Origin: a virus
DNA length: 30,564 nt
Virus record (IMG/VR): IMGVR_UViG_3300031963_004870
Location: 1-30,564 of that record
Strand: one strand, 5' to 3'
Both the position numbers and the translations under genes were made by a program. The notes beneath the pieces are model-generated. The model ran no database searches and was not told the origin of the DNA. It saw nothing but the letters and a program-made list of their open reading frames with translations. Below, piece by piece: positions 1,261 to 25,830 of this stretch; the stretch's first letter is position 1; each line of letters starts with the position of its first letter.

Positions 1261-2040
1261 TTATTCTCCCCAATGGTTTTTACGAAGTTCATATACATCG
1301 ATTGGCTCACGTTTCATGTGATTACCTTGATTAAAGTATGCTCCTTTTTTTAGATATCCACCCAAAAAGTTTCGTCTAAATCTATTTGATTTATTTGGTT
1401 CTGAACCATGAATTGTGTGTGAGTGAAGTAAAACAACTTCTCCTTTACGAAGATATCCTTCTACTTTTCTAAAATCATGTCCTTCTGGCATAACACACGG
1501 CTTACCTCTTTCGTTTCTCCAAAACTTTGGATTACTCTTTGCTCTTTCCTCATCAATTTCAATCGGTAAGACTGGTAATCTGTGTGAACCTTCGTAATTC
1601 CAAACTGCTCCGTTTTCGGGATCGTGGTTATCCAACGCTAAAGCAGTATTGATAATTTCGTTATGTTTACAACCTGTATAGAATCCATTTTGGTGTTGGT
1701 CTCTACCCAATTGTCCTGGTGGTTTGAAATATGCCCAAGTTTGTAAGCCTATCAACTCCCCCTCCATCAAAAACTCCATTGCTTCAATCAACTTTGGATG
1801 GACAAATAATTTTTCTAATTTTGATGATAATTTGTGTGGATATGCAAATGGGTCCCATTCTCCCCATTCATCACCATTGTCTTTAGTAGTCAATGACCGT
1901 TCTTGACGTAATCTTTCTAATTCATCATTAATTTCATCACATTGTTCCTCTGTAAGGAGTTGTAATACGGTCCAACCTCGATATCTCCAATCGAAGGTCA
2001 TTTGTTGAATTTCTTCTTGTGTAAGATGTTTAAATGCCAT
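1261..2040 (-). CDS. PhyH-like Fe(II)/2-oxoglutarate dioxygenase
   Basis: This 259-residue protein has the layout of phytanoyl-CoA dioxygenase (PhyH) family enzymes, which oxidise a substrate with O2 and 2-oxoglutarate. Visible landmarks are the proximal metal-site region DQHQNGFY (114-121), the segment ALALDNHDPENGAVWNYEGSH (133-153) typical of the double-stranded beta-helix core, the distal His211 in HTIHGSEP, and basic residues RFRR (220-223) where the 2-oxoglutarate carboxylate is usually held. The usual metal triad is HxD...H, but here it reads His116-Gln-Asn118, so the Asp is replaced by Asn. The length is normal for the family. It lies 38 bases upstream of the polymerase gene and downstream of the tail block, behind its own promoter-like box. 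The substrate cannot be read from the sequence; a nucleotide, a protein or a small metabolite are all possible. Confidence 0.8.
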   Translation of the reverse strand: MAFKHLTQEEIQQMTFDWRYRGWTVLQLLTEEQCDEINDELERLRQERSLTTKDNGDEWGEWDPFAYPHKLSSKLEKLFVHPKLIEAMEFLMEGELIGLQTWAYFKPPGQLGRDQHQNGFYTGCKHNEIINTALALDNHDPENGAVWNYEGSHRLPVLPIEIDEERAKSNPKFWRNERGKPCVMPEGHDFRKVEGYLRKGEVVLLHSHTIHGSEPNKSNRFRRNFLGGYLKKGAYFNQGNHMKREPIDVYELRKNHWGE

Positions 2041-11172: not shown

Positions 11173-11661
11173 TTAGTATTCAAGAATTGCGTAATCATAA
11201 GTTAAAGTTAATTCTATCGATAGTGGGTCGTTTGAAGCCCAATCCAATTCACCAAAGTTTGCTGAAGTGATAAATGCTCCTTTTAAAGTCCATTGTTCAA
11301 TCTTATCACCTACTGGTCCTAATAAGAAGAAGTTAATATCTTTCTTATAGAATGCCGCGTATCCATCTCTACCTGTTAGAGATTCGTGTGAACTTCTAAC
11401 CCACTCCATTACTTGCTGTGCTCCAGATGGAACGATTGGGTCATAAAGAGAGATAGTAATATCATCCCAAGTGGATTTACCCTTAATCTTTCTTTTTACG
11501 TTGATGTGGTCTAGTTCAACTATTTCCGATGTGAAAGTTGGTCTACTAGCCGTTTTGATGATGTATGATTCAATACCATTGATTTCCATAATAAATCTAT
11601 TCCCCAATTTGGGTTCAAAATTTCTGTAGAACATCTTGTCAAACTCTAATATTTCTGGCAT
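11173..11661 (-). CDS. Tail tube protein (T4 gp19-like)
   Basis: The 162-residue protein has the length of gp19-type tube subunits, which stack as hexameric rings inside the sheath. Typical parts are an N-terminal EPKLGNRFIMEINGI (residues 16-30), SYIIKTASRPTFTSEIVEL (32-50), where gp19 proteins have an IKSxxxPxxxxxxIE segment, the KSTWDDITISLYDPI region (61-75), and a C-terminal strand LSIELTLTYDYAILEY. It directly follows the sheath gene, separated by a short gap that holds a promoter-like box, as in T4 (18-19), and is closed by a terminator. Because tube subunits are needed in large numbers, this isolated unit with its own box and terminator fits high expression. The call is firm. Confidence 0.9.
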   Translation of the reverse strand: MPEILEFDKMFYRNFEPKLGNRFIMEINGIESYIIKTASRPTFTSEIVELDHINVKRKIKGKSTWDDITISLYDPIVPSGAQQVMEWVRSSHESLTGRDGYAAFYKKDINFFLLGPVGDKIEQWTLKGAFITSANFGELDWASNDPLSIELTLTYDYAILEY

Positions 11662-11707: not shown

Positions 11708-13942
11708 TTATCCGTTAAAACTTGCTCCAGTTGGTAAGATGTTGAAATCAATTTGAATGAATTCAGCGGTTTTAGTCGGTTGTAAGAAGATAGCTCCTGC
11801 TAATATGTTTCTATCAATTACATCAGGCGTATTGTTAGTATCATCCATCACTACTCTAAACGCGTAAAGTCCTTGTCTCTGTTGGATGCTATCCAAATAT
11901 GGATTAACAATGTTTAAGAATCTGTTTCTAGTTTCAGAAGTATTTTGTTCAAACACTAAATATCTAGATGAAGATGCGATATACTTTCTAACAGTCAACA
12001 ACAATCTTCTTACGTTGATTCTATCCAATGCAGATGGTCTATCTTGCAATGTTTTTTGTCCGAATACTACAATTCCTTGTCCAGGGAACTGAACGATTGG
12101 GTTTACTTTGTTTTCGTATAATGAATCTTTTTCGGATTGAGTTAAACGATTTTGAACACTTACTGCTCCAATTAAACCACCTCTATTCAAACCTGCTGGT
12201 GCAAACCATTCAGCTGCTACTCTATCGTTAGCCGCAAATACCCCAGGCAATAATACTGATGGTGGTACTGCGATTAGTTTGTTAGTGTTAACATCGATTG
12301 TTTTAACCCAAGGGTAGTAAGTTGCTACCATATTTGAATCGATTGATTGTGCTTCTGTATTTGCTTGTCCAATTGAATCACCATAAGCGGTTGTATCCAA
12401 AATGTAGAAACAATCATTTCGTTGCTCAACCATATCCAATACTGAAGTTGCTACTGAAGAGTGTAATCGTTTGATAACACCTGGAGTTACAACCATATTG
12501 ATGTCAAATTCATCTACATTTGATAATGCCGCGATATGTTTAGCGTATGCTGCTGAACCACTAGCATTTACTGTTGATAAGTTAAATCCTTGTGAGTTTC
12601 CTGCTGAAATATCTGCTCCTGTCAATATTGGAGTTGCTGGATTCATACCATCAAATCCTTCTTGGAATCCTACAATGAATTGTGCCGAAGTTGAACCTAC
12701 TGCTAATGTACCACCATTTGATGCATCTAATCCAAATACAGAGTTAGAACCTACACCTGCTCCAGTCGGAATTGGCTTTAAGTAGATATTGTTATCAGTA
12801 TTACCATCTAAATTGATACCACCATATTGTGTTGCCGATGAAGTTAAGAATGTTACTGCAGGAATCAATGCTCCAACTGCTGCCGATGCGGATACTGGTA
12901 AAGTATACGCTGCGTGTCCGAATGGAACTGCTTGTACGGGAGCCGATGTATTTAAGTTAGCAATTCTAACATATTTTGAATTACTTACCCAATCTCCAGA
13001 TTCAGATATTTTACCCTCTGAATCAATTGATAATTTTCTATCACCGATTACTCTACTAATATAGTTAGGAGAATTAGGGTCTAAATTTACATTTGAATAA
13101 GTTTCTAATACTACTTTTTTCTTATTTGTATCACCAAATTCTCTTACAACTACGGTGAATGTACCATAATCAGTACCATTTACAGAACCTGCTGCTTTAA
13201 TATTTGTGATACCAATTTTTACTTTAGTATTTGCCGCATTACCTGCTCCGATTGTTTCAAATTGGAATAAGTTATATCTATCACCAGAGATTACTTGAGA
13301 TGTAATCATTGGTGTTAACGCCTCTTGCGCATCAAATGTAAAAAGTTGGTCACCCAATACAGTTACTGAAGAAGATGCACTGGAATTAAATGTTATAGAA
13401 GAATTTTTAAAGAATCCATACACATAAGGGTCTTTAGAACCAAACGCAGATGTTCCAAATACTGCTTCAATATCGTTTGTATCGGTTACATCCAAAGAAG
13501 CAGATAGGTTTAATCCACTACCTCTTAATACGAAATCACCTGCTCCTGCATTAGAAGAAGTTAATTGTGCGTCTGCAAAACCTCCGTTTGCACTTCCTGA
13601 AGTATTGAATAAGATACCTAAAGATGCTGATACAGCTCCTGAAGTTGCAGTTAATAATAAAGGTGCTACTTCGGTATATCCTCCAACACCCCCAACTCTA
13701 CAAATTGTAGCAGTTCCTGCCTCTCTTAAATAATTTTGTACGGCTAAAGGAGTAAGATATGTGCCATCTGCTGCTCCAAATAATTTTTCAAATTCTGCCT
13801 GTGAATTTACGATTGTAGGTACCAATGGTCCTTCTTTGAAAGGTCCGATAAATGCTGCTCCAATATCTGCTACCCCTTGCTGTAAGAATGAAAGGTCATT
13901 TTCTTTTGTAAATACACCTGGTGATACTATTTTGTCTGCCAT
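11708..13942 (-). CDS. Contractile tail sheath protein (T4 gp18-like)
   Basis: This 744-residue protein is a little longer than T4 gp18 (659). The N-terminus reads VSPGVFTKENDLSFLQQG, then AAFIGPFKEGPLVPTIVNS and EFEKLFG, the standard beginning of contractile sheaths (SPGV...G...KGP...P..V.S..EF...FG). The conserved C-terminal domain is present: LDRINVRRLLLTVRKYIA, LVFEQNTSETRNRFLN, YLDSIQQRQGLYAFRVVMDD and AEFIQIDFNI. The variable middle (about 90-430) is Ser/Gly/Asn-rich and carries the extra length, probably a surface domain. It precedes the tube gene. Together they form the contractile pair that defines a myovirus-type tail. The call is firm. Confidence 0.92.
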   Translation of the reverse strand: MADKIVSPGVFTKENDLSFLQQGVADIGAAFIGPFKEGPLVPTIVNSQAEFEKLFGAADGTYLTPLAVQNYLREAGTATICRVGGVGGYTEVAPLLLTATSGAVSASLGILFNTSGSANGGFADAQLTSSNAGAGDFVLRGSGLNLSASLDVTDTNDIEAVFGTSAFGSKDPYVYGFFKNSSITFNSSASSSVTVLGDQLFTFDAQEALTPMITSQVISGDRYNLFQFETIGAGNAANTKVKIGITNIKAAGSVNGTDYGTFTVVVREFGDTNKKKVVLETYSNVNLDPNSPNYISRVIGDRKLSIDSEGKISESGDWVSNSKYVRIANLNTSAPVQAVPFGHAAYTLPVSASAAVGALIPAVTFLTSSATQYGGINLDGNTDNNIYLKPIPTGAGVGSNSVFGLDASNGGTLAVGSTSAQFIVGFQEGFDGMNPATPILTGADISAGNSQGFNLSTVNASGSAAYAKHIAALSNVDEFDINMVVTPGVIKRLHSSVATSVLDMVEQRNDCFYILDTTAYGDSIGQANTEAQSIDSNMVATYYPWVKTIDVNTNKLIAVPPSVLLPGVFAANDRVAAEWFAPAGLNRGGLIGAVSVQNRLTQSEKDSLYENKVNPIVQFPGQGIVVFGQKTLQDRPSALDRINVRRLLLTVRKYIASSSRYLVFEQNTSETRNRFLNIVNPYLDSIQQRQGLYAFRVVMDDTNNTPDVIDRNILAGAIFLQPTKTAEFIQIDFNILPTGASFNG

Positions 13943-14010: not shown

Positions 14011-15738
14011 TTACTTTAATGTTGTTGAGAAATGATTATATACCTGCGCTACTGATGTAGAATTCTGTAATACATTGTAGAATAATACGGCTTGGATACC
14101 TCCATTCCAAAATGTTGTTCTTGCACTATTACATCCAATTGTTACAAAGTTAGTAGAAGATGGAGCAGTAAATGCTGATGAAGTGAATGTTCCTACTGAA
14201 CTACCATCAACGTATATGGTACAAGTACCTGATGGTTGGAATGCTGCTGAAATTAAATAGTTTACCCCACTCGTTAATGATGTGGTTAATTGTGCACTAT
14301 TTCCTAATGAACTACCATAAAACTTAACTCTATTTAATGTAGAATTATCAGTAGATTCGATTGCTAACCCATAAAATCCAGCATAATCAAAAATATGTCG
14401 CGATGCTACACCCAATGTTGTAGTTGGTCTAATCCAAACGTGGATTGTACCAGTATTTGTATTAAATTGTGAATATCCACCATTAATGTTAGTTGTCGTA
14501 TCTTTGTAGAAGAATTGGTTAGTTCCGTTAAATGTTACAAATGATGCTTTCTTATTTGCACCATTTGTAGATGTTGGATTACCACCCGTAATTCCCGCAT
14601 CGTTTATAACACCTGCAGGTCTAACACCTGTATTATATCCACTCAAATCTAACCAGTCTGCTGCTGCAGAACCTGAATTATAAGATGCCGTTTTATATTG
14701 GTCAACATATAATCTTAATCCTGAAGATGGAATATATGGTTGTGTAGTTGTTCCTTTGTTATGAGATATGATACCGTTTGCCAAATAAACGTCAGCATTT
14801 TCCACATTAAGTGTTACGATTTCAACATCTTCAATTATTACTTCAATATCAGTAATTTCTACCTCATTTAAACCAGTTACCGAATCGTATGTTACTACTA
14901 AATCACCAATTAATACATCTTCGATATTCTTAAAACGATATTTTTCGATTTCAGAATCCCAAACCCAAAGAGGGTGAGTTCCAGTTGCTTTTATCAATCC
15001 ACCATTTAAATCGTAATATCCACTTGCAAAGTTAAATACAATATCTGCTACATTTACTTCTTGATATGAACCAGATTGATTTTCTAACATATAGAATCTC
15101 CAATCAACTTGGTCTGATTCTGGATCCTGGTCTTCATCAGGTAAACCATCAGGTACCCATGCTTTAATAGTATCACCTACTGAAAGGTCTTCTACATTTA
15201 CAAGAGTTCCATCTGCTTTAGTTATTTTTGTTCCAAATAGTAAACAGAAATCTGGTTGGTTAATTGTATTATAAACATCTACTGCAAATAGGGTTTTGGT
15301 AGATGGTGTGTTATATCCAGTTGCTGCCAAATTATAACCATCGGCATAATTTAAAGTCAATACTGAAGATGCTTCCGAATATGTTGATTGTGCAATAGAT
15401 GCAGGTGTAATTGGAAATGACGGAGATGCACCTAATGTTGGAGAACCTACTGAAAAGTTTGCGTTATTAAAAGATGCAGTATAATTTGCAGCTACACTAC
15501 CTACTTTCGAACCATGTAATGAACCCGCTGTCCCAAATGAGAATGTTGCGGTTTCTGTTGTAGATTCTACTATATAAGTAAAAGTTGGCAAATTTGGCGT
15601 TACGGAGTCTATTGCGAATGAAGTTAGTGAACTATTCGAAGCTCCACCTGATAACCCTCCCAATGAAACTGCTCCGGCTCTGTTTGAACCACTAACCGCT
15701 CTAAATAAATTTCCTAATGATAAATTAGTTCTTGGCAT
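14011..15738 (-). CDS. Tail adhesin with Hint (intein-like) autoprocessing domain and LamG-like domain
   Basis: The protein has 575 residues in three parts. Residues 1-164 are Ser/Gly/Asn-rich beta-type sequence (start NLSLGNLFRAVSGSN). Residues 165-327 are a Hint domain: Cys165 in CLLFGTKITKADGTLVNVED, a TGTHPLW block with Thr252 and His255, and the C-terminal block DVYLANGIISHNKG with His326-Asn327. There is no homing endonuclease. The residue after Asn327 is Lys, not Cys/Ser/Thr, so classical splicing is not expected; cleavage at either end remains possible. Residues about 338-575 look like a concanavalin/LamG sandwich (GLRLYVDQY, WLDLSGY, FNGTNQFF, GTIHVWIRPTT, CTIYVDGSSVGTF), common in carbohydrate-binding adhesins. 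It lies between the glycosyltransferase and sheath genes. I infer a surface tail protein, possibly cleaved to release or expose the LamG part. Confidence 0.85.
   Translation of the reverse strand: MPRTNLSLGNLFRAVSGSNRAGAVSLGGLSGGASNSSLTSFAIDSVTPNLPTFTYIVESTTETATFSFGTAGSLHGSKVGSVAANYTASFNNANFSVGSPTLGASPSFPITPASIAQSTYSEASSVLTLNYADGYNLAATGYNTPSTKTLFAVDVYNTINQPDFCLLFGTKITKADGTLVNVEDLSVGDTIKAWVPDGLPDEDQDPESDQVDWRFYMLENQSGSYQEVNVADIVFNFASGYYDLNGGLIKATGTHPLWVWDSEIEKYRFKNIEDVLIGDLVVTYDSVTGLNEVEITDIEVIIEDVEIVTLNVENADVYLANGIISHNKGTTTQPYIPSSGLRLYVDQYKTASYNSGSAAADWLDLSGYNTGVRPAGVINDAGITGGNPTSTNGANKKASFVTFNGTNQFFYKDTTTNINGGYSQFNTNTGTIHVWIRPTTTLGVASRHIFDYAGFYGLAIESTDNSTLNRVKFYGSSLGNSAQLTTSLTSGVNYLISAAFQPSGTCTIYVDGSSVGTFTSSAFTAPSSTNFVTIGCNSARTTFWNGGIQAVLFYNVLQNSTSVAQVYNHFSTTLK
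14758..15246 (-). other. Hint domain coding segment
   Basis: This segment encodes residues 165-327, from the Cys codon TGT (15244-15246) to the Asn codon AAC (14758-14760). The preceding codon CAT gives His326; the next is AAA (Lys). All blocks needed for N-S acyl shift and Asn cyclisation are present, without a +1 nucleophile. Confidence 0.8.
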
Positions 15739-16751: not shown

Positions 16752-19622
16752 TTATAAACCTTTGTTATTTCTACAATTATTTAAATCTATTCTTAATTGC
16801 TCTATTTGTAATTGTTGTTCTTTAATACCTTCAATTAGTAATGCTACTAACTTATCGTATTTAACTGCTTTGAATCCACTTTCTCTCGTCTGAACTAATT
16901 GTGGTAATACTGCTTCAATTTCTTGTGCAATTACACCCACATCGTTTCCTTCGTATCCGTGCTCAACTTTATTTTCTTCTTTCCAATCGTAAGTGTTACC
17001 ACTAATCTTTCTGATTTTGTCGATTGCGTTTTCAATTGGTTTGATGTTTTCTTTGAAACGAATATCAGAAGATGAGAATGCTACAACATCATTTGCCGCA
17101 TCAATTCTACCAGCGGTAGCGGATGCTGTCATACCAATACCCAATGAGTTGAATTGTACGTTAGATGATGTTGCTACTGCTTGTCCGATTGCAATTGTTG
17201 GGGTTGCTCCCTCACCACTATTATTTGTAATAGTAACACCAGTTCCTTGTACCAAAGATGCTACATAATCACCCGTTGTATCAGTGCCCAATGCAACTTG
17301 ATTTGCCGCTACCGTAGTTGCAAATGAAACATTACCTAAATTTGTAATAGTTCCTGTACCAGTTACATCACCAGTTAAAGTGATTGTAATATCAGTACCT
17401 TCCAAATTACTTAATCTTGTTAATGCAGAAGAACTAAATGCTTCTAAATTAGCAGTTTCAACTTCCAATACACCTAATCTAGTGATTGCAGAACCACTTG
17501 CAGTTGATAATTGGTCTAATCTACTCGTTTGTGTAGTGTTAGTCGTATCATTTGATGCGGTGTATGAGTTTAATGAACTCAATATGCCGATTACTTGCGA
17601 TGAACCACTAACAACCGTTTCTGCATTTAATCTTGTCTTAATTGTTGTATTAATAGAAGATGTAAATAATTCTAAATTAGCAGCTTCAACTTCTAATGCC
17701 GATAATCTAGTTAATGCAGAAGAACTAAATGATTCTAAATTAGCAGTTTCAATTAGTAAACTCGCAGTTGTGGAGTTTACATTTGAATTAAATACTGAAA
17801 TATCAACTCCATCAACTGTTCCTGATATTGTTATACTACCAGTTACTGCTACATTTGAACCCAATGAAATTGTAGTTCCATCATCAAATATATTTGAATC
17901 TACGATATGCTCTTTACCAGTTCCTTTTACTAATCTATTATTTGTTAAGTAAGTTTCATTACCTAAATTATTATAAGTTTCAGGACCCATCAATAGAACC
18001 GATGATGTTGTATCAGTTCCATTTCCTCTGTGAATAAATAGAAGTTCGTCTTGTACCGCATCGTATAGGAATGAACCAGAACCACCAGATGAACCACTGT
18101 CTATAATTTGTAATCCTGCAAATCTAGATGATGGAGTTGCTGTATTTAATGTTACAATTGATGCTCCAATTACTAAATTTGAAGAACTAATAGTTTGAAT
18201 TGATGAAGAACCTAATACAATTAAATCTTCTGTTACAGTCAATGAACCACTAACAGTTTGAGAACCGTTAAATGTATTTGTTGAATTTGTTCTTGCAAAA
18301 GTCCCACTAACTGCCTCATTTGCTGCAACTCTTTGTGTTAAACTTGCAGTTGTAGAGTTTAAGTTTGTTATTGAAATATCTTGTGAGTCATTTGTAGTTT
18401 TAGCAGCTGATGCCGAACTAATTAATGAACCTGTGATAGTTGCTAATGCACTATTTTGAGTTAATTGCGAACCACTAAAATTATTTAAATTTGATACTGA
18501 AATATTTAAACTAGCGGTAGTTGATTCTAAATTAGTTAATCTACCATCTTGTGAGTCATTTGTAGTTTTAGCAGCTGATGCTGAACTAATTAATGAACCA
18601 CTTATTGTTGATAAAGCAGTATCAAATGCGGAAAATCCAGTTGTTGATTGTAAAGTTACTTGAGATGAACCACTTACAACCCCATTTGTTGCTGCAATGG
18701 AACCAGTGATGTTTGCACGAATTGAGCCCGATATTTCAACTACCGAACCACTATTACCTATAGTAATAAACTCACTATTATATGCTCCAATTTGTACATA
18801 ATCACCATATACTAATGCTTGTGATTGTCCATTTTTTAAATCTTGGACAGATACATTTGCTGTATTGCCACCAAGTACCCCTCCCGAAGGATATGCCTGC
18901 ATATGTGCTCTGAATGGTGATACATTTAATTCCGCACCATAAGTTGGATTAGAATCATTATCAAAAGAATGTATTTGTAAAGAATGTTCGTATGTATCCG
19001 TACCATCATTCCAATGTTCAATTGCAATACCAATACCTTCATAAGGTCTGCCATTAGATGCAGTAAATGGTGCAAGTCTTAAAAAGTGTGACTCGCTTCC
19101 TACTGATGGCCATCCTCTTGTAAATTCTATATTAGAACCACTTGCAATCAATGAACCAGTTATACTTACACCGTTTGAAAAGTTTTGAGAACCATCTGCA
19201 TTAGCAGATAATGTAGATATAACTGTATTATTTGCTACAAATTTAATAGAGCCTGTTGAAACATACAAATCTCTCCAAACTTTAGTAGCAGAACCTAAAT
19301 CAAATGCATTTGTAGTTTGTGGGATAAGTGAAGAACTTAAAGATGCTACAACATTTACAGTATCTGCAGTTGCATCACCAATTGTAATAGCTCCACCAAT
19401 TGTTACGTTACCTCCAATGTTTGCGTTGCCAGTAATATCCAATCCAGAACCTGAAATAGGTCCGAAATTTCCTGTGCTACCTGTACCACCTGCTGATAAA
19501 ACGATGTCTCCGTTTGGACCACCGACTAATAGAGTTCCTAATGTTGTGTTTACGAATGGTTCTCCGAATGCTAACGAACCTGATTGTTGTGCGGTTGTCC
19601 CACGTCTAAATTTAAGTGCCAT
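16752..19622 (-). CDS. Tail fibre with C-terminal Peptidase_S74 chaperone (956 residues)
   Basis: The N-terminus MALKFRRGTTAQQSGSLAFG is the RRGT...GE tail-attachment motif. Parallel beta-type repeats and a unique domain (about 170-290, with LRLAPFTASNGRPYEG) follow. Then come Ser/Thr/Asn-rich coiled-coil modules (SASAAKTTNDSQ, FSGSQLTQNSALATITGS) and a domain shared with the neighbouring fibres (about 455-585: VLGSSSIQTISSSNL, SGSFLYDAVQDELLF). The last 106 residues are an intramolecular chaperone of the Peptidase_S74 family: SSDIRFKENI with the Ser852-Lys857 dyad, GNTYDWKEEN, GNDVGVIAQEIEAVLP and a final coiled coil. In the family this part trimerises the fibre and then cuts itself off. The gene is followed three bases later by the glycosyltransferase. 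Confidence 0.88.
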   Translation of the reverse strand: MALKFRRGTTAQQSGSLAFGEPFVNTTLGTLLVGGPNGDIVLSAGGTGSTGNFGPISGSGLDITGNANIGGNVTIGGAITIGDATADTVNVVASLSSSLIPQTTNAFDLGSATKVWRDLYVSTGSIKFVANNTVISTLSANADGSQNFSNGVSITGSLIASGSNIEFTRGWPSVGSESHFLRLAPFTASNGRPYEGIGIAIEHWNDGTDTYEHSLQIHSFDNDSNPTYGAELNVSPFRAHMQAYPSGGVLGGNTANVSVQDLKNGQSQALVYGDYVQIGAYNSEFITIGNSGSVVEISGSIRANITGSIAATNGVVSGSSQVTLQSTTGFSAFDTALSTISGSLISSASAAKTTNDSQDGRLTNLESTTASLNISVSNLNNFSGSQLTQNSALATITGSLISSASAAKTTNDSQDISITNLNSTTASLTQRVAANEAVSGTFARTNSTNTFNGSQTVSGSLTVTEDLIVLGSSSIQTISSSNLVIGASIVTLNTATPSSRFAGLQIIDSGSSGGSGSFLYDAVQDELLFIHRGNGTDTTSSVLLMGPETYNNLGNETYLTNNRLVKGTGKEHIVDSNIFDDGTTISLGSNVAVTGSITISGTVDGVDISVFNSNVNSTTASLLIETANLESFSSSALTRLSALEVEAANLELFTSSINTTIKTRLNAETVVSGSSQVIGILSSLNSYTASNDTTNTTQTSRLDQLSTASGSAITRLGVLEVETANLEAFSSSALTRLSNLEGTDITITLTGDVTGTGTITNLGNVSFATTVAANQVALGTDTTGDYVASLVQGTGVTITNNSGEGATPTIAIGQAVATSSNVQFNSLGIGMTASATAGRIDAANDVVAFSSSDIRFKENIKPIENAIDKIRKISGNTYDWKEENKVEHGYEGNDVGVIAQEIEAVLPQLVQTRESGFKAVKYDKLVALLIEGIKEQQLQIEQLRIDLNNCRNNKGL

Positions 19623-21288: not shown

Positions 21289-24200
21289 TTATGTTAATGT
21301 ATATGTTATGCTACTTCCTGCACCACCTGCATTCGGAACAGTTGTTCTGTAAACCTTATACTGTCCAATCGTTGTTAATGTAAATTGTCCTAATACCGCA
21401 AAACCACTCGTTGAGATACCTGTTAAGTTTGGTCTTGCTGAATCAAATACTATATAAAGATATTTATCACCCGTCCAACTAATTGTTAGGGTTTGTCCAC
21501 TTGCAGTAGTTGTTCCTTTTGATATTGTACCAATTGAACCACCCAATGTAGTATCCCATGCTCCAATATTTTCCAATTCTCCGGCAGTAAATGAAGATGC
21601 GTCACTTGCACCATATCTTAAACTTCTAATTTTTGTATAAGTAGTAGTTGTCGTAGATGTGGTTGTTAAATCTGGTATATTATCACCTATTGGAGATGCG
21701 TAGTTCGCAGTAGCGGTTATACTAATTGAAGTAGAACCCGTTGCAGAACCTGTCACAAAGTATGGTGTACTAACATTTGTTGTAGTATTTACCAAATTCC
21801 AACTATTAGATGGGTCTGCTGATGAAGATGTGAATGAAATACTACCAGTCGCACCTTGTTCGATTTGATTTGATGATGCCCCTAACTGAACTGTCGCAGT
21901 TGGTGTCAACGTAGGAGAAGCGGGGCTTGATTTGGAAATTGTTCCAGTAGCCGTAGTTGACGTTTTATACAAAGTACCATCTAATGGAGAACTTGCAGTA
22001 TATTCTAATCTATATGTATGTGAACCAGATGTAGTTGTACTGAATGATAATGATGTTCCACTACCAACTTCAGTTAATAAAGTAGAACCTTCGTATAAAG
22101 ATGCACTTACTAATGTATATCCCTGATTACTCCAAGTACCATTTACAATGTACGCATCATTTACATTATTAAATCTATCTGTTAAAAATCCACTTAAAGA
22201 TGTTGCTATTGATGTTGGTATTGCTGGAGTTCCGAAAATAAATTTCAAAGTTCCATTTATAAATGTTACTGCCACATTACTATCAAAATCTGCCACTTCG
22301 ATTCCTGTTAATTGTTCTATACTATTTGTTACATAATTGATATATCCACTACTTGATTCTAATGCTGCAATAGATGCGGATACGGATTCACTAAAAGATG
22401 ATGTAAATGTATTTAAATTTTCAATCGAAATTTTAGCAGAAGCAGAAAATGTATTTAATTGTGTTAAAGGATTTCCTCCACTAATTCCACCAATTCCTTC
22501 TAAATACACAAGTCTTTCTTCGTGGTCTTTAACAGACGATGTCATCAATGATGCACTTATATATGATTGAGATGCGGATATTATTAATGAACCCGTAATC
22601 GTTGCTAATGCAGTATTTTGAGTTAATTGAGAACCTGTGAAATTATTTAAACTTGCAGTAGTTTGGTAAATAGATTCCAACGAAGCGGTTACACTTGCAC
22701 TAAATAAATTTATAGATGCAGTAGTTTGGTAAACGGATTCCAACGAAGCAGTTACACTTGCACTAAAATTATTTAAACTTGCGGTAGTTTGGTAAACGGA
22801 TTCTAATGATGATGTTACACTTGCACTAAAATTATTTAAACTTGCCGTAGTTTCGTAAATAGAACTCAACGAAGCAGTTACACTTGCACTAAAATTATTT
22901 AAACTTGCGGTAGTTTGGTAAACGGATTCTAATGATGATGTTACACTTGCACTAAATAAATTTAAAGATGCTGATGATTGGTGAATACTTGCCAAATCAT
23001 TATTTACAGATTGAGTATATAAATTTAAACTCGCAGTCGTCTGATATACGGAAACCAATGAAGCCGTTACACTTGCACTAAATAAGTTTAATGAAGAGGT
23101 AGTTTGATAAATGGATTCTAATGAAGTGGTTACACTTGCACTAAAATTATTTAAACTTGCCGTAGTTTGATTTAAAGAGGCAGTTGTATTATTTATTTCA
23201 GTTAATTGTAGTGAAGATGTAAATACACTATCACCACCTGCTAAAAGTATTTTTGATTCAGCTCCTTTTTTACCAGCCTTCCAATAATCGATTGTACTAT
23301 CCCATAACAATGAACCCGATAGTAAAGAACCACCAGTTGCATCCGTTACTTCAATACCCGCTTGGGTTTGAGAATATCCATAATTTAATTGTATTATGTT
23401 ATCTCCAATATTAACTTCATTACTATGAACTGTTGTAGTTACACCTAATACTGATAAATTTCCTAAAATGGTTGTATTAACACCATCAACTGTGATTGCA
23501 GTTTTTAAAGATGATGTATAGGAATTTAAACTAGCCGTAGTTTGATATATAGATTCTAATGATGAGGTTACACTTGCACTAAAATTATTTAGTGGATTTA
23601 ATATAGATATTATTTGTGATGAACCTGATACTAGCGTTGGTTTATTTAGAACATTTGCAAATTCTACGTCAGCAGCGGTTACACCAGTCAATCCACTACC
23701 ATCCCCAACAAATGAAGAACTAATTACCGATGCACTTACATATCCACTAAAGTATGTATTAGATGAACTAATCAATAGTTCATTTACATTTGCACTGATT
23801 GTGTATTCGGATGTAGTTGTTACTTCACCTAATCCAGCCAATTTCAAACTTGCCAATCCTTCTCTTGCGGTTAAATTAGCCTGTGTAAATGTACCACCTA
23901 CCAATACATTATCATTTGGTAGAAGTGTTACCGAGTTTACACTACCTGTGTTTAATCTATATGTACTAGTAGAAAATCCATCTATGAGACTTCCATTATC
24001 ATAATCTACTATTATAAATCTATTAGTGGTTTGATATGATGCTAGAGGATTTCCAAGACTGGTAAAACTACCACCTATTAATATTTTATCACCATCGTAA
24101 AAATCAAAATCATTTACATATTGTACTCCTGGAGTATTTTGGTCTGAACCACTTATGTATAGTCTAAATCCATTATCATATGCACCCCTTCCAAAAGCCA

Positions 24201-25830
24201 CATCATCGGTTGTTAATCTTGCAAATCCGGCATTTCTACCTTGTGCTCCTACTCTAGTATCTTTAAATCTACCAGCAATATAGATATAACCATTATCACC
24301 TGCGGTGTAGGCATCAGTTACTTTAATTTTTTGAATTCTATCTAAACTATTACCAGTAGCTATATCTAAATTATTACCAGCAAATCCAAAATCTAAAGCA
24401 CCACTAGGATGAAGTTTTACAAGATGATGGTAGTCGGAGAATGAATTCCATTGTTGAAAATCACCACCAATTAAAATTGCCTCTTCGGAACCACTAGGTA
24501 GTAATGCTACTGAATAAAAATTATCATCTCCAAATCCAGGAGATGTAGATACTACTAAAGAAGTATCAATAGTACCATCTGGATTTACTCGTCTACTTCC
24601 TGATGGAAAACTACCTACACAAACTATTTTATTATCGCTTTGAATTGCAATATCTCTAATTTCACCAAATGAACCCCAAGATTGAGCCTCAAATGATGTA
24701 TCTAATATACCATCGGAATCTAACCTTGCAAGTCCATAACGCAATGCACCATTAACTCTACTAAAATTACCACCTACTATAATTTTACCATCAGATTGAG
24801 TAACAAATGTATTTACATATCCGCCAGTATCACCTCCTATTGTTGTACTAAATACAGGTGCGGAGAAAGAAGTATCTATCGTACCATTCGAATTTAATCT
24901 TGCTATATCATTTGTAGTATGTCCATCTACAGATGTAAATCTACCAGCAATTAATATCTTACCATCACCTAATACTAATGATTTTTTTATAATTGTAGAT
25001 TCTGAACCTGAAAAATCTAAATTGAATGTGGAATTTAAAGCAGGTATATTTTGTGTCAATGATGCATCTAATTCAAACCCATCAGAATTAATACTACCAC
25101 TCACTAAAACTGAACCAGATAGTATTGTTGGACCTATATTTCTAAAAGTAGATGAACCACTAATAGTTAAGGAACCACTAATAGTTTGATTACCTACAAA
25201 TATATTACTTCCAGTAGTCGCATAACTTGCAGTTACACTTTGTAAATTATCTACTTCACCTTGTAATGATGAAGTGATAAGTTCTATATTATCTAATCTA
25301 CTATCAGCAGATTGAGTAAAAGTGTTATATCCAGTATTGATTGATTCTTGTGATGCAGTAAATGCATTTAAAGATTGAGATACAATTGATATTGCATCAA
25401 ATTGGGAATCTATTGAAGATGATAATAATACTATATCAATACCATTTACACTACCAGTAAAAGATGCACTTATACTATTAGCATATACAGTTCTCCATTT
25501 TGCACCAGATGTTCCTAAATCGAGAGTTCCGTTTCCACCTGGAACTAAATTAGTTGTAAATACACCTGGAACACTAATATTATCCCCGGTGTTGTTTCCT
25601 AAAAATAAGTTACCAGATATTGCAACATCACCACTAAAATATGCGTTTGATGCGGTTATATTTCCTGTCAATATAACATCACCATTTACAGGTGCATTTA
25701 AAGTTAATACATTGTAGTTATTTGAACCACTACCAAATTGTAAAGAACCAGAACCCTGATGTAGATATAATTCACCTTCTGTAAGTGATTCATTTGTAGT
25801 TCCTCTTCTTATTTGAAATATAGCTGCCAT
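21289..25830 (-). CDS. Giant tail fibre with seven-repeat beta-propeller (1513 residues)
   Basis: This is the largest gene in the window. It starts with MAAIFQIRRGTTNESLTEGE (attachment motif), then parallel-beta and coiled-coil segments to about 260. Residues about 264-666 hold seven Delta-60 (DUF5122) repeats, recognised by strands GKILIAGRF, GKIIVGGNF, NKIVCVGSF, EAILIGGDF, GYIYIAGRF, DKILIGGSF and DNVLVGGTF plus LNSNGTIDTSF-type turns. Seven repeats suggest a complete seven-bladed propeller. A shared fibre domain follows (about 793-870), then a tandem array of 21-residue coiled-coil repeats (about 883-1064). The last 350 residues are Thr/Ser-rich beta sandwich-like sequence ending SITYTLT, with no S74 chaperone. 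I infer a long fibre with a propeller as a side receptor-binding head or spacer. It may depend on another chaperone for trimerisation. Confidence 0.87.
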   Translation of the reverse strand: MAAIFQIRRGTTNESLTEGELYLHQGSGSLQFGSGSNNYNVLTLNAPVNGDVILTGNITASNAYFSGDVAISGNLFLGNNTGDNISVPGVFTTNLVPGGNGTLDLGTSGAKWRTVYANSISASFTGSVNGIDIVLLSSSIDSQFDAISIVSQSLNAFTASQESINTGYNTFTQSADSRLDNIELITSSLQGEVDNLQSVTASYATTGSNIFVGNQTISGSLTISGSSTFRNIGPTILSGSVLVSGSINSDGFELDASLTQNIPALNSTFNLDFSGSESTIIKKSLVLGDGKILIAGRFTSVDGHTTNDIARLNSNGTIDTSFSAPVFSTTIGGDTGGYVNTFVTQSDGKIIVGGNFSRVNGALRYGLARLDSDGILDTSFEAQSWGSFGEIRDIAIQSDNKIVCVGSFPSGSRRVNPDGTIDTSLVVSTSPGFGDDNFYSVALLPSGSEEAILIGGDFQQWNSFSDYHHLVKLHPSGALDFGFAGNNLDIATGNSLDRIQKIKVTDAYTAGDNGYIYIAGRFKDTRVGAQGRNAGFARLTTDDVAFGRGAYDNGFRLYISGSDQNTPGVQYVNDFDFYDGDKILIGGSFTSLGNPLASYQTTNRFIIVDYDNGSLIDGFSTSTYRLNTGSVNSVTLLPNDNVLVGGTFTQANLTAREGLASLKLAGLGEVTTTSEYTISANVNELLISSSNTYFSGYVSASVISSSFVGDGSGLTGVTAADVEFANVLNKPTLVSGSSQIISILNPLNNFSASVTSSLESIYQTTASLNSYTSSLKTAITVDGVNTTILGNLSVLGVTTTVHSNEVNIGDNIIQLNYGYSQTQAGIEVTDATGGSLLSGSLLWDSTIDYWKAGKKGAESKILLAGGDSVFTSSLQLTEINNTTASLNQTTASLNNFSASVTTSLESIYQTTSSLNLFSASVTASLVSVYQTTASLNLYTQSVNNDLASIHQSSASLNLFSASVTSSLESVYQTTASLNNFSASVTASLSSIYETTASLNNFSASVTSSLESVYQTTASLNNFSASVTASLESVYQTTASINLFSASVTASLESIYQTTASLNNFTGSQLTQNTALATITGSLIISASQSYISASLMTSSVKDHEERLVYLEGIGGISGGNPLTQLNTFSASAKISIENLNTFTSSFSESVSASIAALESSSGYINYVTNSIEQLTGIEVADFDSNVAVTFINGTLKFIFGTPAIPTSIATSLSGFLTDRFNNVNDAYIVNGTWSNQGYTLVSASLYEGSTLLTEVGSGTSLSFSTTTSGSHTYRLEYTASSPLDGTLYKTSTTATGTISKSSPASPTLTPTATVQLGASSNQIEQGATGSISFTSSSADPSNSWNLVNTTTNVSTPYFVTGSATGSTSISITATANYASPIGDNIPDLTTTSTTTTTYTKIRSLRYGASDASSFTAGELENIGAWDTTLGGSIGTISKGTTTASGQTLTISWTGDKYLYIVFDSARPNLTGISTSGFAVLGQFTLTTIGQYKVYRTTVPNAGGAGSSITYTLT
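22636..23185 (-). repeat. Tandem 63-bp repeats encoding 21-residue coiled-coil units
   Basis: About eight units spaced 63 bases apart (for example the acacttgcac core at 22691 and 22754) encode variants of TTASLNNFSASVTASLESVYQ. Twenty-one residues equal three heptads, so copy changes keep both frame and coiled-coil register. Units differ at a few bases, so the array is imperfect. Confidence 0.85.
23833..25041 (-). other. Delta-60 (DUF5122) beta-propeller segment of the giant fibre
   Basis: This segment encodes residues about 264-666. Seven repeats of about 50-70 residues each carry a GG/AG-(R/N/S/D/T)-F strand end. The spacing is less regular in blades 3 and 6. Flanking sequence is typical fibre, so the propeller looks inserted. 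Confidence 0.8.

Follow-up and report, generated by a model that had tools for sequence, protein, structure and literature searches.

A Hint domain followed by a conserved lysine in a tail-cluster protein of uncultured phages, encoded beside a glycosyltransferase-like gene

The Hint Protein and Its Locus

The stretch of DNA analysed here (the window) is the 30,564-nucleotide IMG/VR virus record IMGVR_UViG_3300031963_004870, taken over positions 1 to 30,564, and the element under study is a 575-residue protein encoded in its tail gene cluster, in which a Hint (hedgehog/intein) domain stands between an N-terminal part (N-part) and a LamG-like C-terminal part (C-part) (Table 1). The original prediction, made from the sequence alone, had described this product as a LamG tail adhesin with an internal Hint domain carrying Cys165, a TxxH block, His326-Asn327 and a lysine at the +1 position. 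The three-part organization is confirmed, and the residue map is borne out by the sequence, with Cys165, Thr252, His255, His326, Asn327, Lys328 and Gly329 all at the positions named; the protein thus contains the Cys1, the TxxH motif and the C-terminal HN of the Hint superfamily. The label "tail adhesin" is a putative one, suggested by the LamG-like fold and the place of the gene in the tail cluster. Members of the family come from uncultured freshwater and marine phages.

Table 1. Features of the Hint protein and of the neighbouring tail cluster in the window
Feature	Coordinates	Strand	Basis
Hint-LamG protein gene, 575 aa, ATG start	14011..15738	(-)	Open reading frame list and translation
N-part, residues 1-164, N-extein-like, beta-rich predicted fold	15247..15738	(-)	Pfam, PHROGs, AlphaFold2 model
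Hint domain, residues 165-327	14758..15246	(-)	Alignment, AlphaFold2 model, profile and structure matches
Cys165 codon, block A nucleophile	15244..15246	(-)	Sequence and alignment
TxxH block, residues 252-255	14974..14985	(-)	Sequence and alignment
His326-Asn327 codons, block G	14758..14763	(-)	Sequence and alignment
Lys328-Gly329 codons, conserved +1/+2 residues	14752..14757	(-)	Sequence and alignment
C-part, residues 328-575, exchanged among lineages	14014..14757	(-)	Open reading frames of relatives
Laminin_G_3 match, residues 423-562, E 4.6e-12	14053..14472	(-)	Pfam; concanavalin A-lectin-like fold in model
Glycosyltransferase-like gene, GT-B fold, 332 aa, ends 11 nt before the Hint start codon	15750..16748	(-)	Model, pairing counts
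Tail fibre with S74 chaperone domain	16752..19622	(-)	Pfam, PHROGs
Tail sheath	11708..13942	(-)	Pfam, PHROGs
Tail tube	11173..11661	(-)	PHROGs

In the window protein, Intein_splicing (E 0.021) and Hint_2 (E 0.15) both fall below the Pfam cut-offs, so the domain is easily missed in annotation. Among 62 aligned relatives, Intein_splicing reached E <=0.01 in 17, with a best value of 7.8e-8 in a table compiled without cut-offs. Vint (PF14623) gave zero matches in the window, PHROGs placed the 575-residue protein in no family, and the N-part matched no family in Pfam or PHROGs.

The predicted structure agrees with the proposal that residues 165-327 adopt a Hint fold. An AlphaFold2 model built from 62 rows (the window and IMG/VR sequences) has a mean predicted local distance difference test score (pLDDT) of 86.9, with the Hint fold at about residues 160-332; segments 117-121, 156-160 and 330-332 are of low confidence, the latter two lying near both Hint junctions. 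When about residues 158-334 were compared by VIA-align, bacterial intein-like (BIL) and mini-intein structures were matched, the top Hint row being 6y75 (Tetrahymena BIL2; Z 18.9, root-mean-square deviation 1.9 over 141 residues), tied with 6fre (Z 18.3), 1mi8 (Z 18.1) and 5i0a (Z 17.9). The Foldseek top 50 includes 6tmm, 6y75 and 2lwy, the last of which we take to be an A-type BIL (TMt 0.84), and the family sequence profile matched 2lwy (E 5e-7) and 6y75 (E 2.9e-6) in the PDB. The predicted model is thus that of a Hint superfamily member, and the fold matches together with the gene context uphold the earlier view of a BIL- or intein-type domain inside a LamG protein of the tail cluster. The C-part model has a concanavalin-lectin-like fold; its matches to the binding domains of clostridial neurotoxins stem from a common, lectin-like fold and carry no information on toxicity. 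The viral structure library BFVD returned mostly lectin-like matches plus one Hint protein; A0A6J7WKC1, a 929-residue "Hint domain containing protein" of an uncultured Caudovirales phage, is a structural match there by name and score only.

The Glycosyltransferase Partner and Gene Neighbourhood

The model of the glycosyltransferase-like (GT) product upstream of the Hint gene (mean pLDDT 89.2) matched WaaG, BshA and PimA, presumably all GT-B enzymes, among its top structures (E 2.3e-8 to 1.1e-6), and no Pfam family was found for the protein; on this model the partner has a GT-B fold and is a putative enzyme. Relatives were collected from IMG/VR stretches matching the full protein (258) or the Hint alignment (294), with 80 loci taken from each, and all locus counts include identical contigs retrieved with differing flanks. 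In 275 of 297 loci with a Hint open reading frame (ORF) detected by profile (L001-L298), the GT gene ends 0-30 nt upstream; it lies elsewhere in the locus in four (L078, L113, L148 and L149) and is absent in 18, namely 17 in which the Hint ORF starts no more than 178 nt from the locus start and the Erwinia locus L081. Among 78 new loci found by an HNKG pattern, 73 have the GT and the other five start inside or just before the Hint gene. When 80 loci were fetched by the GT itself, a selection blind to the Hint, every one had a Hint or N-part ORF 7-21 nt downstream, and an intact N-part without a Hint was seen in none of these 80 loci, N-parts away from the GT not having been searched by themselves. 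The tail sheath follows the Hint gene in all 287 loci with room for it, and of the 198 loci with room upstream, 188 also contain the S74 fibre.

Beyond these loci, a GT of this family was found in one of 50,697 records of the annotated phage collection, the 484-kb LR756508, where it follows a Hint gene ending HNKH-stop and lies far from both sheath genes; these are two adjacent tail sheath genes of one huge phage (L302, 6464-8938 and 9953-12427). A second copy of the GT family occurs in six of eight large records searched, and that of G003 adjoins another Hint protein, ending THN-AKGGAPPG. Models of the N-part, the Hint and the GT found nothing in stretches of 30 kb and 21 kb from Microcystis phage Mel-JY01 and Flavobacterium Immutovirus, the nearest by sheath among the annotated phages examined, so the Hint and GT pair looks like an added cassette.

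Elsewhere in the window, a PhyH (phytanoyl-CoA dioxygenase-like) gene lies beside the tail cluster (1264-2040, minus strand; E 1.4e-19), and a 1513-residue protein (21289-25830, minus strand) contains three DUF5122 beta-propeller stretches (E 1e-34).

Conservation of Lys328 and Exchange of the C-Part

The rows of alignment A4 were chosen for HNKG, and this alignment is the source of A7 and, with L149 added, of A8 and A9, so that HNKG invariance in these four alignments is fixed by row choice and is no evidence. In an alignment of 82 rows (59 distinct), C165, T252, H255, H326, N327 and K328 are invariant in every lettered row, with gaps in one or two rows, and the only rows without HNKG are two pieces of the broken L053 gene. 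Across 131 distinct Hint ORFs, drawn from three IMG/VR scans plus L081 and L149, HNK is present in 127 (126 HNKG and one HNKH, in L149), one reads HNTD (L081) and three have no HN end. Of these three, one is L201, which is cut short, and another is a fragment of L184, whose gene is interrupted by a frame change; the third is taken to be L053, with an in-frame stop before HN. As an observation on the genes themselves, L053 (also L171) has this stop just before HN, and the frame change of L184 lies inside the Hint. In the 80 GT-fetched loci, HNKG is present in 77, two have no HN end and one, L183, stops with its contig inside the N-part and so shows no Hint ORF.

At 103 distinct sites the K328 codon is AAA in 100 and AAG in three, and the next codon is GGA, GGT or GGC, with CAC in place of the glycine codon at one site. 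Pairwise ratios of nonsynonymous to synonymous substitution (dN/dS) for the Hint, about 0.09 to 0.37 in eight pairs, are similar to those of the flanks and point to purifying selection on the domain. With HNK in 127 of the 131 distinct Hint ORFs, the +1 lysine is not a decayed position. An internal ribosome start was considered, since AAAGG in the HNKG codons resembles a ribosome-binding site, and rejected, as an in-frame ATG, GTG or TTG 3-17 nt downstream occurs at none of 139 distinct sites. The Hint family extends to about 30% identity. Among the 50,697 records of the annotated phage collection, five match the 575-residue protein at E 0.01, none covering 80% of it, and single-sequence queries with the L149 Hint protein or the L149 GT returned no IMG/VR relatives.

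The complete architecture of N-part, Hint and C-part is found in 83 of 88 distinct ORFs with any part, the remaining five being the two L053 pieces, the cut contig L138, the distant L149 and Erwinia L081. Three kinds of C-part stand behind the one Hint: the LamG kind of the window; a second in proteins of 545-591 residues, among which a profile of the window C-part picks up no more than L151 and L160, both weakly; and a third in proteins of 415-438 residues, with about 100 residues after HN and no match to that profile. Laminin_G_3 is present in 41 of the 62 A4 members and fn3 in five, and conservation falls after Gly329 in A4, where K and G are fixed by row choice. Judged from these comparisons, the C-part is swapped between lineages. 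KG opens every one of the exchanged C-parts, which indicates that it travels with the Hint and not with the tip.

Lysine at +1 in Other Hint Proteins

IMG/VR was scanned with the pattern Y-x-A-N-G-[IMV]-[ILMV]-V-H-N, which leaves +1 free and does not match the window family (S or T before H). Among at least 120 loci, +1 was C in 102, S in seven, K in six, T in two and F, V and A in one each, and the prevalence of Cys implies that most such viral Hints are ordinary inteins. Among the matches listed, Lys accounts for six of the nine without C, S or T, and four of these six end HNK-stop. A second IMG/VR scan, with NG-[IMV]-[ILMV]-V-H-N-X-stop and TAA and TAG stops only, gave 34 stretches, in which X is Lys in all 25 Hint-bearing ORFs (19 distinct over the last 100 residues, in 14 clusters; two are contig-edge pieces of 28 and 43 residues). 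The other nine are ORFs of 6-71 residues without a Hint match, ending I, G, R or D. The Hint profile for this tally and for that of the arrays was built from A9, which leans both slightly towards HNK ends. Among Hints that end exactly at +1, a set overlapping these 25 ORFs, Lys is present in 21 of 21 distinct cases.

Many HNK-stop proteins carry two or three successive Hints, and only the last has Lys. In a 71-row tree the HNK-ending Hints do not form one group, with four changes needed and at least three forced; the last Hint of L330 ends in Lys although it clusters with second-position, R-type inner Hints of other arrays (98/91). In our reading, Lys at this position may follow place or function, and not only descent.

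Several further proteins deserve mention in their own right. Tandem-Hint phage proteins, about 640-784 residues when complete, have two or three C-terminal Hints, the last usually ending HNK-stop; examples are L331 (1228-3519), L333 (1360-3621), L334 (2145-4442, minus strand, with a degenerate end), L465, L473, L376 and L354. Their N-part had looked by eye like an ATP-grasp enzyme, which Pfam did not confirm. A further group of 853-919 residues (L470, 5121-7787, minus strand; L486, L475, L472 and others) has a single C-terminal Hint ending WFFVNGMLVHNK-stop; L470 and L486 contain PT-rich repeats, and a search of the annotated phage collection at E 1e-5 found nothing related to L470. In L300 (3973-10173), an Aenigmatarchaeota ribonucleotide reductase, three inteins were seen by eye, the second followed by Lys (HN-KRRGANMG) and thus seemingly a case of lysine at +1 in an intein. 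L336 (LR756508, 2764-6924) encodes a 1386-residue protein, portal-like by eye, with apparently three ordinary inteins (HN-S, HN-T and a KN-S end). A scan of a genome collection gave two loci, both ribonucleotide reductase inteins.

Comparison with Known Hint Systems

The phage Hint resembles class 1 mini-inteins (Ssp DnaB, RecA) in its fold, Cys1, TxxH and HN, and differs from them in having Lys328 at +1 instead of Cys, Ser or Thr and in the lack of an intein-free allele in the 80 GT-fetched loci, one contig of which is cut in the N-part. It shares with the A-type BIL of C. thermocellum (2LWY) an HN end without C, S or T at +1, together with the profile and structural matches given above; what sets it apart is the +1 Lys, shared by every intact member of the family seen, its place in a phage tail cluster and its pairing with a GT gene. 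To our knowledge, Hedgehog Hog domains have no HN end, whereas the phage Hint has HN followed by a LamG or fn3 part. The closest fold match is BIL2 of Tetrahymena thermophila BUBL1 (PDB 6Y75, 6TMM), at only 21% identity; BIL2 is eukaryotic with ubiquitin-like flanks. A lysine in the C-flank is reported for BIL2 and is present, as Lys328, in the phage protein; the likeness is one of presence in that flank. A tail protein of Erwinia phage Y3 (Y3_110, KY984068) also contains a Hint, annotated by its depositors as an intein domain; there it is C-terminal, behind a collagen-like N-part, HN is followed by Thr and nine residues, and the 12.5-kb stretch holds no GT of this family.

In published accounts, A-type BILs are defined by an HN end without Cys, Ser or Thr at +1 (PMC7765530, PMC7664689), and Hog proteins have a Hint followed by a sterol-recognition region (PMC7765530). 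A-type BILs lie in variable regions of bacterial proteins; the protein studied here is a phage one with a variable C-part, and the genome-collection scan gave ribonucleotide reductase inteins only. For BIL2, PMC8616854 reports that a C-flank lysine enters an isopeptide bond and that the N-flank is conjugated to differing substrates. No report of phage Hint domains with Lys at +1 was found in the literature covered, seen in part and with most subscription papers outside its scope, and two jumbo-phage papers, in the parts available, mention inteins only as mobile elements.

Possible Functions of the Domain

We tentatively favour, at somewhat less than an even chance, a resident Hint domain that would use the conserved Lys328 as acyl acceptor in place of Cys, Ser or Thr and so join the N-part to the tip. 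It is our first choice because the lysine is retained in the family, because it recurs in HNK-stop Hints and because an isopeptide is reported for BIL2. Both the N-S acyl shift and Asn cyclization have their residues intact, and it is the acceptor that differs from a class 1 intein. Cys165, aided by Thr252 and His255, would form a thioester with Phe164 by an N-S acyl shift. The side-chain amine of Lys328 may then attack it before Asn327 cyclization, giving an isopeptide and a branched product; alternatively, the alpha-amine of Lys328 would attack after cyclization, giving an ordinary peptide. Cyclization of Asn327 would excise the Hint, 163 residues long, and the N-part and the LamG tip would remain linked by Lys328. 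The partner GT-B enzyme probably glycosylates the Hint tail protein or its product.

Several points weigh against this proposal. It starts from the observed domain, predicted fold, residues, conservation, gene pairing and C-part exchange; the chemistry, in all its steps, and the function of the GT are what we infer. Lys is rare beside Cys at +1 (6 versus 102 among the matches listed), and within tandem arrays the inner copies show A, R, C, F, I or L there. The split of HNK ends on the tree could represent gains or gains plus losses, and with several long branches some joins are unsure. HNK-stop proteins have nothing after Lys, so joining would add just one lysine to the N-part. L149, which has a GT partner, carries Gln in the place of the block B His, and its end reads HNKH. 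The Z score of BIL2 is a tie with those of ordinary mini-inteins, and the likeness of its lysine to Lys328 is one of presence in the C-flank. Finally, BIL domains without a +1 nucleophile are reported to yield mainly cleaved products (PMC7664689).

This last report favours the main rival, cleavage alone in the manner of A-type BILs, in which Asn327 cyclization and thioester hydrolysis would give N-part, Hint and tip, and Lys would be kept for efficient cleavage or as the needed N-terminus of the tip. The residues for both cleavages are intact and HNK-stop proteins have no tip to join; by itself, however, cleavage gives no reason for the +1 Lys of other Hint proteins, including those that stop right after it. 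We consider cleavage alone rather unlikely, and joining through lysine at least as likely as cleavage alone. The original prediction had reasoned from the +1 Lys to a self-cleaving domain rather than a splicing intein. Its domain, fold and self-processing character stand, but the exclusion of splicing does not, given the retention of Lys in the family, its recurrence in HNK-stop proteins and the reported BIL2 precedent. The paired GT gene was no part of that prediction.

Alternatively, transfer could occur in trans, the N-part thioester being attacked by a lysine or other nucleophile of a neighbouring virion subunit and the tail cross-linked, or, in a hedgehog-like variant that would use the GT partner, by a glycan. 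The GT pairing, which extends to L149 without a C-part, and the conjugation of the BIL2 N-flank to various substrates, as described in PMC8616854, are consistent with such transfer; it names no partner subunit, however, and makes the conserved cis Lys redundant, and we regard it as improbable. A similarly small chance is given to the view that the GT recognizes Lys-Gly as a modification site, for example for hydroxylysine glycosylation, with the Hint only exposing or burying it. K-G after HN beside a GT gene and the PhyH-type dioxygenase gene of the window (1264-2040) would suit this view, but Gly is absent in HNK-stop proteins, L149 combines HNKH and a GT in a record without a PF13640 match, and 2-oxoglutarate (2OG) oxygenases are common in these genomes, so that their presence near a Hint says little. 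A tie between such oxygenases and Hint arrays was likewise dropped: four neighbours noted by eye were all PF13640, yet seven of nine records hold 2-5 PF13640 matches apiece.

Slightly less probable still is a catalytically dead Hint or structural spacer, the full 575-residue chain being the virion protein; the low-confidence junction segments 156-160 and 330-332 of the model would allow it, whereas the close family shows no change in the catalytic residues, and the domain is under purifying selection. An ordinary mobile intein inserted in the tail gene, identical in kind by fold and motifs, is very improbable, as +1 is not C, S or T, no intein-free allele occurs among the 80 GT-fetched loci and the domain is present throughout a family whose members diverge to about 30% identity. 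The evidence suits a resident autoprocessing domain better than a parasitic intein. More broadly, and doubtfully, "HNK" Hints may constitute a distinct phage class with a +1 lysine acceptor, giving ATP-free isopeptide-joined or lysine-capped virion proteins, with the product of one branch decorated by its coupled GT.

Implications

The domain could represent a new phage route to cut or join tail parts. If Lys328 does act as acceptor, it would be a case of virus-encoded, ATP-free protein joining via lysine, for which the ciliate BIL2 would be the reported precedent; it might also provide a new ligation tool and would show phages exchanging receptor-binding tips behind a constant self-joining module. 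If the domain only cleaves, it would still represent a maturation step of a tail-cluster protein, with exact predicted fragments.
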